Assembly: GCF_003594885.1 (NCBI RefSeq)
Contig: NZ_QZEZ01000007.1
Span: forward strand, 186,001 to 250,000
Direction: 5' to 3'
Source of the DNA: Vallicoccus soli
GTDB taxonomy: Bacteria; Actinomycetota; Actinomycetes; Motilibacterales; Motilibacteraceae
DNA length: 64,000 nt
A program made the translations under genes and the position numbers. Positions 11,314 through 60,228 of this stretch are shown here, one piece after another; the stretch's first letter is position 1, and every line of letters starts with the position of its first letter. The notes under the pieces were generated by a model, which saw only the letters and a program-made list of their open reading frames with translations, was not told the origin of the DNA and ran no database searches.

Positions 11314-11340
11314 CGCCGGGCCGCAGGTCGTCCGCCCCGG

Positions 11341-11412
11341 TTGACCACGTGGAGCCCCCGTACGGGTGCCGGCCCAGGCCGACGAGCCTCGGTCGGCACC
11401 CGTACGCCTAGG
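11341..11412 (+). repeat. Family A palindromic intergenic repeat, copy 1
   Basis: Begins TTGACCACG and ends CCTAGG. Perfect 13-bp inverted arms CGTACGGGTGCCG (11359-11371) and CGGCACCCGTACG (11394-11406) enclose 22 nt. Homologous copies occur at 26227-26295 (same orientation) and 27328-27400 (opposite orientation). Lies just downstream of clpB, where it could form a terminator-like hairpin. Confidence 0.85.
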
Positions 11413-11421
11413 TCGGTCCCC

Positions 11422-11493
11422 TGAGGGTGCCCCTCATGGGGTCGCGCCTGAGGGTGCCCCTCAGCGGTGCTGTGCGCCTGGGGGTGCCCCTCA
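11422..11493. repeat. Family B palindrome cluster (three copies of TGAGGGTGCCCCTCA)
   Basis: Copies at 11422-11436 and 11449-11463 are perfect inverted repeats (arms TGAGGG/CCCTCA read on the other strand, 3-nt centre); 11479-11493 has one changed base (TGGGGGTGCCCCTCA). The last two follow GCGCC. The cluster fills the gap between the clpB-side family A element and the end of the convergent membrane-protein gene. Confidence 0.85.
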
Positions 11494-25161: not shown

Positions 25162-26187
<1,026 letters not shown>

Positions 26188-26192
26188 CGCCC

Positions 26193-26213
26193 GCGTGGTC
26201 GCGCTGACCACGC
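26193..26213. terminator. Hairpin after fba
   Basis: GCGTGGTC, loop GCGCT, GACCACGC: a perfect 8-bp stem starting 6 nt past the fba stop. The GACCACG sequence recurs as the outer end of the neighbouring family A repeat. Confidence 0.6.
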
Positions 26214-26226
26214 CCGGCTGGTCCTG

Positions 26227-26295
26227 TTGACCACGTGAAGCACCCGTACGGGTGCCGACCGAGGCCCACGAGCCTTGGCCGGCACCCGTACGCCA
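26227..26295 (+). repeat. Family A palindromic repeat, copy 2 (left flank of DUF559 gene)
   Basis: Starts TTGACCACGTG; arms CGTACGGGTGCCG (26245-26257) and CGGCACCCGTACG (26280-26292). Clearly homologous along its length to copy 1 at 11341 and to the reverse complement of copy 3 at 27328. Directly precedes the AbiEi/DUF559 gene. Confidence 0.88.
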
Positions 26296-26360
26296 TGTCC
26301 GGCACCCGCCCCTGTGGACGGGAGCCGTCGCCCGCCGCCGCGCCCCGGCATGCTGCGCCG

Positions 26361-27305
26361 GTGCACCCCGGACTGCTCGCCCTCGCCGCCCGCCAGCACG
26401 GCCCCTTCACGACCGCGCAGGCGCGGCACCACGGCGTCGAGCTCGACGAGCTGCAGCGGCTGCTGCGGGCGGGGGTGCTCGTCCGCCTGCGGCGCGGCGT
26501 CTACGCCGAGGCGTGGCGCACCCGCGGGGACCCCCGCGCCACCCACCGGGTGCACGTCGACGGCGTGCTCCTCGTCCTCGGTGCCCGCGCGGCCGTGAGC
26601 CACGTGTCCGCGGCCGTGGTGCACGGCCTCGACCTGCTCGACCCCGACCTCGGCCACGTCGAGGTGACGCGCGCCGACCTGGGCTCCTCGCGGACGGAGG
26701 CGCGCGTGCGCCACCACGCCGCGGCCCTGCGGCCGGACGAGGTCGTCGAGGTCGACGGGCGGCCCGTGACGTCATTGGCACGGACGGCGATCGACATCGC
26801 GCGCCGCAGCACCCTCGCGCAGGCGCTCGTCGTCCTCGACGCGGTGCTGCACCGCGGGGTCGACCGCGAGGAGCTCCGGCGCGTGCACCTCGCGTGCGCG
26901 AGCTGGTCCGGTTCCCGTACGGCCGGTCGTGCCCTCGCGCTCGCCGACGGTGGCGCCGAGTCGCCCGGGGAGTCCCTCGTACGGCTCCTCCTCGCCCGGG
27001 CCGGCCTGCCGCCGGTCCGCACCCAGGTGGAGCTGCGCGACCACGACGGCCTGGTCGGCCGGGTCGACCTGCTCTTCGAGCAGCAGCGGACGGTCGTCGA
27101 GTTCGACGGCCGCGCGAAGTACGGCCTCGAGGGGGACCCCGCCGACGCGCTCTGGCGCGAGAAGCGGCGCGAGGACCGCCTGCGCGGGCTCGGCTACGAG
27201 GTGGTCCGGGTCGTCTGGGCGGACCTCGACCGCCCGGACGACGTGCGCCGGCGCGTCCTGGGCGCGTTCGCGCGGTCCGCGCGGTGGCCGCGCGCGGCCT
27301 CCTGA
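26361..27305 (+). CDS. AbiEi-type/DUF559 protein (winged helix plus VSR-like nuclease fold)
   Basis: 314 residues. N-terminal part (HPGLLALAARQHGPFTTAQARHHGV..., GVLVRLRRGVYAEA) resembles the AbiEi antitoxin winged helix. The C-terminal 90 residues have the DUF559/very-short-patch-repair-like nuclease pattern: RVDLLFEQQRTVVEFDGRAKY, a conserved W with K and RED, and LGYEVVRVVWADL. Such fusions are abundant and multi-copy in actinobacteria but uncharacterised. GTG 26361 has a CATGCT box 6 nt upstream and no ribosome-binding site. The gene stands alone between inverted family A repeats; no partner toxin (AbiEii) is adjacent, so a classical toxin-antitoxin pair is not supported. Confidence 0.75.
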   Translation: MHPGLLALAARQHGPFTTAQARHHGVELDELQRLLRAGVLVRLRRGVYAEAWRTRGDPRATHRVHVDGVLLVLGARAAVSHVSAAVVHGLDLLDPDLGHVEVTRADLGSSRTEARVRHHAAALRPDEVVEVDGRPVTSLARTAIDIARRSTLAQALVVLDAVLHRGVDREELRRVHLACASWSGSRTAGRALALADGGAESPGESLVRLLLARAGLPPVRTQVELRDHDGLVGRVDLLFEQQRTVVEFDGRAKYGLEGDPADALWREKRREDRLRGLGYEVVRVVWADLDRPDDVRRRVLGAFARSARWPRAAS

Positions 27306-27327
27306 GGCCCCGCGCGGGGCTCGCCGA

Positions 27328-27400
27328 CCTAGGCGTACGGGTGCCTGCCCAGGCTCGTGAGCCTCGGTCGGCACCCGTACGGGTGCCTCGCGTGGTCGAC
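27328..27400 (-). repeat. Family A palindromic repeat, copy 3 (right flank, inverted)
   Basis: Reads CCTAGGCGTACGGGTGCC ... GGCACCCGTACGGGTGCC ... CGTGGTCGAC. Its reverse complement aligns with copy 2 from the GACCACG end through both CGTACG arms, so copies 2 and 3 face each other across the DUF559 gene like long terminal inverted repeats. Confidence 0.88.
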
Positions 27401-27427
27401 ACGGGCAGGCCCGGCAGGATGGGGGGC

Positions 27428-27841
27428 ATGCACAAGGACCTCCTCGCCGGCCCCCCGCCCACCCACCTCCCCGACGACCCGGCGCCGCGGGAGGCGCTGG
27501 AGGGCGGGGCCGACCCGACGGAGGTGGCGGCGGCGCACCCGGCGTCGAGCCTGGCGTGGGCGGAGCTGGCGGACCGGGCGTACGGGGCGGGGCGCGTCGT
27601 GGAGTCGTACGCGTACGCCCGCACCGGCTACCACCGCGGGCTGGACGCGCTGCGCCGGGCGGGGTGGCGCGGGCACGGGCCGGTGCCGTGGGCGCACGCG
27701 CCGAACCGGGGGTTCCTGCGGGCCCTGCACGCGCTGGGGCGGGCCGCGGGCGCGATCGGCGAGCAGGAGGAGGCCGAGCGCTGCGCGCAGTTCCTGCGCG
27801 ACTCCAGCGAGGAGGCCGCGCAGGCCCTCGGCGACCAGTGA
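27428..27841 (+). CDS. DUF3151 family protein
   Basis: 137 residues, starting MHKDLLAGPPPTHLP, with LAWAELADRAY, VESYAYARTGYHRGLDALRR and GHGPVPWAHAPNRGFLRALHALGRAAGAIGE, which match the actinobacterial DUF3151 family. No signal or membrane segment; a cytoplasmic alpha-helical protein. Found beside fba/purA in many actinobacteria, as here. ATG 27428 lies 7 nt after CAGGAT (27415-27420), a -10-like box, rather than behind a ribosome-binding site. Function unknown. Confidence 0.85.
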   Translation: MHKDLLAGPPPTHLPDDPAPREALEGGADPTEVAAAHPASSLAWAELADRAYGAGRVVESYAYARTGYHRGLDALRRAGWRGHGPVPWAHAPNRGFLRALHALGRAAGAIGEQEEAERCAQFLRDSSEEAAQALGDQ

Positions 27842-36904: not shown

Positions 36905-37075
36905 ATGAGGGGCACCCCCAGGCCGCGTCGGCTCCATGAGGGGCACCCTCAGGGCCACGTCGGCTCCATGAGGGGCACCCTCAGGCGTAGGACCCGCCTC
37001 AGGGGCACCCTCAGCAGACTCGACTCTGCTGAGGGTGCCCCTCATGGGTGATGGGCGCCTGGGGGTGCCCCTGAT
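36905..37075. repeat. Family B palindrome cluster between purD and purB
   Basis: About seven copies of the TGAGGGGCACCCTCA type or its complement: perfect ones at 36937-36951 and 36969-36983, variants near 36906, 37000 and 37058, and one (37030-37044) inside the long hairpin. Spaced by 15-30 nt with conserved flank CGTCGGCTCCA before two copies. The 326-bp purD-purB gap holds this cluster and no gene I can support. Confidence 0.88.
37001..37042. terminator. 18-bp perfect hairpin built from two family B units
   Basis: AGGGGCACCCTCAGCAGA (37001-37018) and TCTGCTGAGGGTGCCCCT (37025-37042) around CTCGAC. Strongest stem in the purD-purB gap; probably ends purD transcription. Symmetric, so would act in either direction. 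Confidence 0.75.
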
Positions 37076-37198
37076 GCATCACGCCCAGCGGGCTCCCCGC
37101 GACGCAGCGCGCCCGCGCCGGGCGCCGCGGAGCCACCTGGTCCGGCCGACGGACGCGCCCGCGCACGGCCGGTGCGCCGGCTGCGGGAGGATGGGCCC

Positions 37199-60053: not shown

Positions 60054-60228
60054 GCGATCACGCGCCCCTGGCGCCGATCACGCGCCCCTCGGCGCCGATC
60101 ATGCGCTCCCCCGGCGGCGATCATGCAACCCCTCGGCGCCGATCACGCGCTTCCCCGGCGGCGATCATGCAGCCGCCCGACCGTGATCATGCAGCCGCCC
60201 GGCCGTGACCACGCAGTGCTCCGGCGCT
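60054..60228. repeat. Family C: eight-copy ~22-bp intergenic array
   Basis: GATCA(C/T)GC cores start at 60056, 60076, 60097, 60119, 60141, 60163 and 60185, with a degenerate GACCACGC at 60207; spacing settles at exactly 22 bp. Consensus CGATCAYGCR-C-rich-CGGCGS. Begins 12 bp after the purM stop. The 432-bp purM-DUF3073 gap (60043-60474) holds this array, about 200 bp of GC-rich sequence in which I see no gene, and a hairpin at 60433. Confidence 0.9.

Follow-up and report, generated by a model that had tools for sequence, protein, structure and literature searches.

The 64-kb window analysed here, i.e., the whole stretch of 64,000 nucleotides from Vallicoccus soli, contains the gene of an AbiEi-Vsr nuclease enclosed between two long palindromic units that face each other and whose copies are scattered over the genome (Table 1). 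We propose that gene and palindromes form one linked mobile system with the nuclease as the active enzyme, arranged like a REPtron around an unrelated enzyme, and we put the probability of this reading at roughly 0.7. Sequence comparison gives good support to the linkage of palindromes and gene and to the palindromes having moved in the past; that the AbiEi-Vsr nuclease moves them is what we infer from it. On balance, we favour the broader proposal of a new class of bacterial mobile elements, with an origin separate from that of REP-RAYT, in which an AbiEi-Vsr nuclease would recognise and spread its own hairpin-ended palindrome, with many lineage-specific families in Actinomycetota. Bacterial genomes commonly contain dispersed palindromes, and to our knowledge RAYT, a HUH transposase, is the only enzyme family tied to them. 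If an unrelated enzyme proved to share this layout, such a way of shaping genomes would have evolved more than once, the large family now annotated as AbiEi/DUF559 antitoxins or as hypothetical proteins would acquire a function open to testing, and ready enzyme-substrate pairs would be at hand for biochemistry and possibly DNA tools. Some of the AbiEi hits that PADLOC and other defence catalogues return may likewise be mobile-element nucleases. A search of the open-access literature found the pairing of AbiEi/DUF559 with dispersed palindromes described in none of the partial texts that it covered.

Table 1. Features of the element, its protein and its surroundings in the 64-kb window of V. soli
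Feature	Positions	Strand	Remarks	Basis
Upstream palindromic end unit	26224..26303	+	head TTGACCACGTG (26227-26237), then hairpin, then tail	repeat search, alignment, folding
Downstream palindromic end unit, inverted	27323..27402	-	head GACCACG outward	repeat search, alignment, folding
Gene-less dispersed copy of the palindromic unit	11338..11417	+	11337-11421 in the inverted-repeat search	
AbiEi-Vsr nuclease gene	26361..27305	+	314 aa, 945 bp	ORF and domain searches, structure model
N-terminal winged helix, AbiEi_4	26361..26522	+	residues 1-54	Pfam, structure model
AbiEi C-terminal-like domain	26523..26948	+	residues ~55-196, nucleotidyltransferase-like fold	structure comparison
Vsr-type endonuclease domain	26955..27284	+	residues ~199-308	alignment, structure comparison
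fba, class II fructose-bisphosphate aldolase	25162..26187	+	host gene left of the element	domain search
DUF3151 gene	27428..27841	+	host gene right of the element	domain search

The flanking units extend into inverted arms of 86 nt (26218-26303 and 27323-27408), 85% complementary over a spacer of 1019 nt, and this pair is the longest among the 1171 inverted-repeat pairs detected in the window. When the two units are aligned, GACCACG stands at the outer end of both, and the single accepted gene between them is that of the nuclease, for which a GTG start is assumed (the reading frame is open from 26235, within the upstream repeat). An initial annotation, made from the bare sequence, had described inverted copies of about 70 bp facing each other with GACCACG outward, a lone winged-helix plus VSR-like gene of 314 residues between them, a solitary copy at 11341, a dispersed character of the palindrome and an interrupted fba-DUF3151 neighbourhood. 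Every one of these points stands, with the units at 80 bp, the protein recognised by domain and fold matches, the solitary copy found again, and dispersal and host locus as described below. Just outside the upstream unit, next to the stop codon of fba, the head motif forms a short inverted repeat (CGTGGTC-GCGCT-GACCACG, 26193-26213).

In the 314-aa protein, Pfam recognises AbiEi_4 (E 3.8e-12) and, below threshold, AbiEi_1, DUF559 and MTES_1575, the last a Vsr-type domain that PMC3710099 names in another fusion; PADLOC labels the protein AbiEi. The AlphaFold2 model built from 43 sequences has a mean pLDDT of 95.3. Its residues 1-196 match the AbiEi antitoxin 6y8q (Z 12.3), residues 60-195 resemble nucleotidyltransferases such as MenT1 (Z 10.9), and residues 199-308 match the homing endonuclease I-Bth0305I (VIA Z 11.5), NGO0050 (Z 11.3) and Vsr (VIA Z 9.9). 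Since E204, D236, E247, D249 and K253 are invariant in 43/43 homologues, the nuclease is probably enzymatically active. No transposase or recombinase family was matched in the protein by Pfam or NCBIfam, and the adjoining genes are fba and DUF3151 rather than one for an AbiEii nucleotidyltransferase, which sets the locus apart from standard AbiE pairs. A profile search of the V. soli genome (98.6% complete) for Y1_Tnp/RAYT gave no match at E<=0.001, and for this reason we set aside REPs moved by a RAYT.

Both flanking units are predicted to fold into strong hairpins, with a minimum free energy of -41.1 kcal/mol (z -7.3) upstream and -42.1 kcal/mol (z -4.4) downstream, in each case equalled by 0/200 shuffles. 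The unit of ~80 bp occupies at least 25 distinct places in the genome, as judged from the 30 best of 76 rows at E<=10. In this and the other genome-wide repeat searches (cognate and Jiangellaceae genomes), at most 40 candidates were scored per genome, and row counts exceed the number of places because both strands of a palindrome count as rows. The head of the unit, read from the alignment, is GACCACGTG and not GT[AG]G: GACCAC is invariant in the 24 aligned copies (alignment A4, from which L017 was left out), GTGAGGCACCCGTACGGGTGCC follows with few changes, and the tip of the hairpin is variable. The hairpin is kept across the copies, in which 91.7% of cells pair vs 89.3% in shuffles. Covariation is weak, three pairs changing on both sides vs 3.1 expected, and strong RNA-style covariation was consequently rejected as a proof of selection on the hairpin. 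By our own gene caller, 21/25 copies are intergenic, and 17 of these have a gene 3' end no more than 150 bp away; at least four (L004, L009, L013 and L021) carry heads at both ends. The idea of a palindrome common to V. soli and its relatives was abandoned, as 16 genomes, including four of the same family (G001-G004), gave short weak matches only (best E 6.6e-4 over 26 bases). It is worth mentioning that the window also holds another palindrome family, TGAGGGTGCCCCTCA / TGAGGGGCACCCTCA with near variants, at 11423-11493 and 36939-37076, members of which are seen by eye close beside 7/25 copies of the main unit (L006, L010, L011, L016, L019, L020 and L025).

The association of gene and repeats is by no means confined to V. 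soli. We surveyed the flanks of 172 homologous loci (L037-L066, L032, L036 and L099-L238) from many actinobacterial families, sampled from the homologue matches listed (30 and 60 more) and from relatives that were the best 80 of 542 by protein similarity. After 11 loci with no usable ORF or flank were put aside, 161 were scored, and 157 were left once duplicates had been removed. Similar repeats on both sides (score >=25) were found at 92/157 non-redundant nuclease loci vs 6/290 neighbouring ORFs (Fisher 1.6e-44), the corresponding figures before de-duplication being 96/161 and 6/304, and just one of 40 control genes with intergenic gaps on both sides reached this score. A qualifying pair is absent from the other 65/157 loci. 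The median length of the flanking repeats is 83 bp, and among the 96 qualifying pairs, four of them duplicates, 55 align better inverted, 29 better direct and 12 equally well. The suggestion that DUF559 genes are flanked by repeats more often than other genes is therefore borne out in relatives when any palindrome is counted. A universal TGAYCA end motif was considered and rejected for want of an overall enrichment: TGAYCA/TGRTCA occurs at 1.42 per kb of nuclease flank vs 1.14, and at least two sites are present at 26/157 loci vs 30/290 (p 0.07).

At the host locus, fba lies directly beside DUF3151, with no nuclease gene, in four (G023, G020, G015 and G006) of 21 genomes compared, G008 has a homologous gene on the opposite strand between the two, G010 has another ORF there, and in the remaining 15 DUF3151 loci fba falls outside the stretch examined. 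G036, G053 and L101 (a third MAG) share the fba-nuclease-DUF3151 order with V. soli, and the interruption is therefore not a recent local event; the order is rearranged in G031 and G008. In G036 and G053 the hairpins differ and the heads, TTGACCACG or TTCGACCACG, point outward. The initial annotation had held that relatives carrying the gene at this locus without flanking repeats would speak against its reading, and L101 and L091 are such cases, no repeat pair being detected there although the gene is present; L101 has a lone palindrome upstream of the gene. A plain reading is that several families have long kept the nuclease gene between fba and DUF3151 and that its palindromes were exchanged in the meantime; independent arrivals at this site are a conceivable alternative. 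The search for a base-exact excision footprint was dropped as the relatives are too distant. In G020, the gap between fba and DUF3151, which has no nuclease gene, carries an unrelated strong hairpin, GGTGGGAACGGAAGATC..GATCTTCCGTTCCCACC (L087 1395-1470).

Jiangellaceae offer a finer view of one locus, which is bounded by convergent genes that we take to be mshC and PAC2. Among 22 genomes the gap between these genes contains a nuclease unit in eight and a different short gene in four, the two genes abut in one, and in the other nine the locus is split over contigs or rearranged. The units begin with a AATGATCACGTTC-like head, the inverse of which is found at the other end in 7/8; the stop codon of the left gene falls within the head motif in 5/8 (G044, G071, G067, G070 and G061), and in 2/8 the nuclease gene lies in the reverse orientation between the flanks. 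The hairpins at this same locus differ between species. Left and right units of one genome have a mean identity of 0.88 (seven genomes, 0.78-0.96, G060 being left out as its right end was not found), and units of different genomes, aligned with free end gaps, have a mean identity of 0.71 (49 comparisons) and a maximum of 0.89, reached by the close pair G044-G071, so that the values overlap the within-genome range. The same species-specific types prevail elsewhere in these genomes: in five of them, 128 of the 150 dispersed rows listed (of 227 found; tallied twice by hand) match the type that flanks the genome's own nuclease, namely 42/42 in G061, 35/37 in G070, 11/11 in G069, 25/31 in G073 and 15/29 in G044. 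The last genome is an exception in that 14/29 of its listed rows are of the G073 type, nearly as many as of its own.

Four complete dispersed elements of G044 were examined, all of them gene-less inverted pairs of units of 155-292 bp. At the first of these sites, 4/11 sister genomes align with the joined flanks as one continuous stretch, a gap of 96-194 bp separates the flanks in G069, G072 and G064 and one of ~1.6 kb in G068 and G073, and G067 and G070 match on the left side only; the last four genomes were left out of the boundary alignment. In G069 the sequence at this site is a palindrome that resembles G069's own type. For another of the sites, G068 and G066 show an unbroken alignment across the flanks, but G066, like G071, has a different palindrome there. 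In the cleanest genomes, G071 and G065, homology ends 23-25 bp before the copy and restarts 4-13 bp after it, and in G074 and G066 it ends 49-62 bp before it. CCGG stands on either side of one G044 copy and once at the G071 site, but with boundaries that fall short of base-exact this does not amount to proof of a target duplication. Other palindrome families, which have TGATCA close to their ends (ATGATCATCAACC.., GTTGATCACGG..), occupy sister Jiangella sites (L340, and the L343 site in G066 and G071); a single intergenic site can thus receive different families. As far as comparison of genomes goes, it establishes a gene-less copy absent at matching sister sites and, within a species, the matching of left with right repeats and of the locus with the rest of the genome.

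These observations bear on the strongest rival explanation, in which an AbiEi-type autoregulator has its operators and terminators in the flanks, the scattered copies represent its regulon or plain terminators, and the nuclease domain has a separate task, e.g., defence. Such a regulatory role has a precedent: according to PMC7319586, autorepression by AbiEi and by Rv2827c works through the binding of 23-bp inverted repeats in the promoter, four of them in the case of Rv2827c. The PADLOC label points the same way, and the 17/25 copies close to a gene 3' end are placed where terminators typically lie. However, autoregulation does not call for a downstream copy that equals the upstream one in length, and neighbouring genes with gaps on both sides seldom show such pairs (1/40). 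Furthermore, the palindromes show the behaviour of mobile repeats: the hairpins at a given locus differ from one species to another, most of the dispersed family differs with them, and one copy occupies some of the matching sites and is missing from others. We regard the regulatory explanation as unlikely and retain the linked mobile system.

If the palindromes are mobile, the question arises as to whether the nuclease or another enzyme moves them. The repeat sequence flanking the nuclease differs from genome to genome. With a joined query of 11 flanking palindromes (E<=1e-6), the flanking palindrome proved multi-copy in 9/9 cognate genomes, with at least 14-80 rows each, and the rows listed fell wholly or mainly on each genome's own palindrome; the V. 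soli genome (G000) gave 0 rows. Among pairs of non-syntenic loci, i.e., with no neighbouring protein in common (the exceptions, L037 with L039, L050, L101 and L107, are syntenic at fba), similar flanks were found in 28/99 pairs at a nuclease tree distance below 1, in 11/294 at 1-1.5 and in 44/11,498 at 1.5 or more. Over these sequences, the relatedness of the nucleases predicts the similarity of the flanking repeats. V. soli itself provides a further example: its second nuclease (L032, C2:137767-138627) has a different repeat family on both sides, a 22-bp unit with GATCATGC, which returns at least 31 rows genome-wide, some of them overlapping. Tandem 22-bp units with GATCATGC, of this same family, are also seen in the window at 60085-60202. 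The proposal, confined to V. soli, that its paralogues use the main palindrome fails and was rejected, since the nearest copies found are ~35 kb and >150 kb away. The third homologue (L036, C1:1035793) has weak, short flank repeats only, GCGATCATGCGCAGGTGGCGC-like upstream (1319-1425) and GCATGGTCGCC-like downstream (2453-2525); its match to the query is spread over two reading frames, and the gene may therefore be broken. The large, near-closed genomes G007 and G051 have 11 and 14 AbiEi-Vsr homologues, respectively, among the matches listed, several of them with shorter and weaker flank repeats. Comparison establishes the pairing of gene and repeat, the distinct families per nuclease and their dispersal.

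It could be argued that the nuclease gene is a passenger, which rides along with palindromes mobilised by another enzyme or gains from its place between the copies, as some nuclease genes have no repeats and cleavage by the nuclease is predicted only. Distinct repeat families per nuclease, two of them in one genome, are nevertheless hard to explain in this way, flank similarity follows nuclease relatedness at non-syntenic loci, and the search of the V. soli genome for the Y1_Tnp family gave no transposase of that type; we hold the passenger explanation for a little less probable than the regulatory one. Hitchhiking, in which homologous recombination flips or exchanges long inverted repeats and gene conversion makes left and right identical with no dedicated enzyme, would suit the flipped gene in 2/8 Jiangellaceae loci and the good conversion partners that copies ~1 kb apart would make, but it is very improbable as it leaves unexplained both the excess flanking of the nuclease family over its neighbours and a species-specific type common to most dispersed copies elsewhere in the genome.

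Under the linked mobile system, the V. soli block would be one member of a system widespread in actinobacteria. The element has two end units, each with a conserved outer head followed by a hairpin (inverted in V. soli), around the AbiEi-Vsr gene, and gene-less units, single or in inverted pairs, are dispersed in the same genome, mostly at intergenic places in V. soli. The AbiEi-type part would bind the cognate unit, the Vsr-type domain would nick or cleave the DNA at the unit, next to it or at new sites, and repair copying or strand transfer may then spread the units to new intergenic sites and homogenise them. This detailed route, from the nuclease to repair copying or strand transfer, is put forward tentatively, and a break-and-copy, homing-like course looks somewhat likelier than a RAYT-like single-strand one. 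The initial annotation had already envisaged a self-mobilising or homing-like unit with the nuclease acting on the palindromes, and this reading, in which cutting and moving by the nuclease are predicted, is partly supported by the pairing and by the I-Bth0305I-like fold.

Several known systems resemble the element in part. With AbiE type IV toxin-antitoxins it shares the winged helix and the AbiEi C-terminal domain, of a family that binds inverted repeats, but the V. soli gene has no adjacent AbiEii, its product carries an extra C-terminal Vsr-type endonuclease, and the repeats of the element are long, stand on both sides and are dispersed. The catalytic fold is that of I-Bth0305I and Vsr, with which it aligns over ~100 residues at the scores given above, whereas the V. 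soli protein has an AbiEi-type DNA-binding module in front and is accompanied by dispersed palindromes, and no host intron or intein is apparent. Insertion sequences with MITEs likewise comprise units that have inverted ends around a gene, together with short derivatives that have lost it, as seen in Jiangellaceae, yet they differ in that the nuclease matches no transposase or recombinase family (Pfam, NCBIfam), no target duplication is demonstrated, and each end of the element is an entire hairpin, with a sequence that is replaced from species to species. The closest likeness is to REP-RAYT systems, REPtrons and REPINs. According to PMC6006769 and PMC3733652, the marks of a REPtron are a palindrome-flanked gene, a gene-specific palindrome family and intergenic dispersal. 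Here too we find a single-gene locus with palindromes on both sides (V. soli and 92/157 homologous loci), a gene-specific and genome-dispersed palindrome family (weak for the V. soli homologue L036), mostly intergenic units (21/25), a conserved head by the hairpin and inverted dimers. On the other hand, the V. soli enzyme is AbiEi-Vsr and not a HUH Y1 tyrosine transposase, and the units, of ~80 bp, have no GT[AG]G (GTAG) head. Since the enzyme is not HUH and the genome has no Y1_Tnp match, we do not file the system as a REPtron, REPtron-like as it is.
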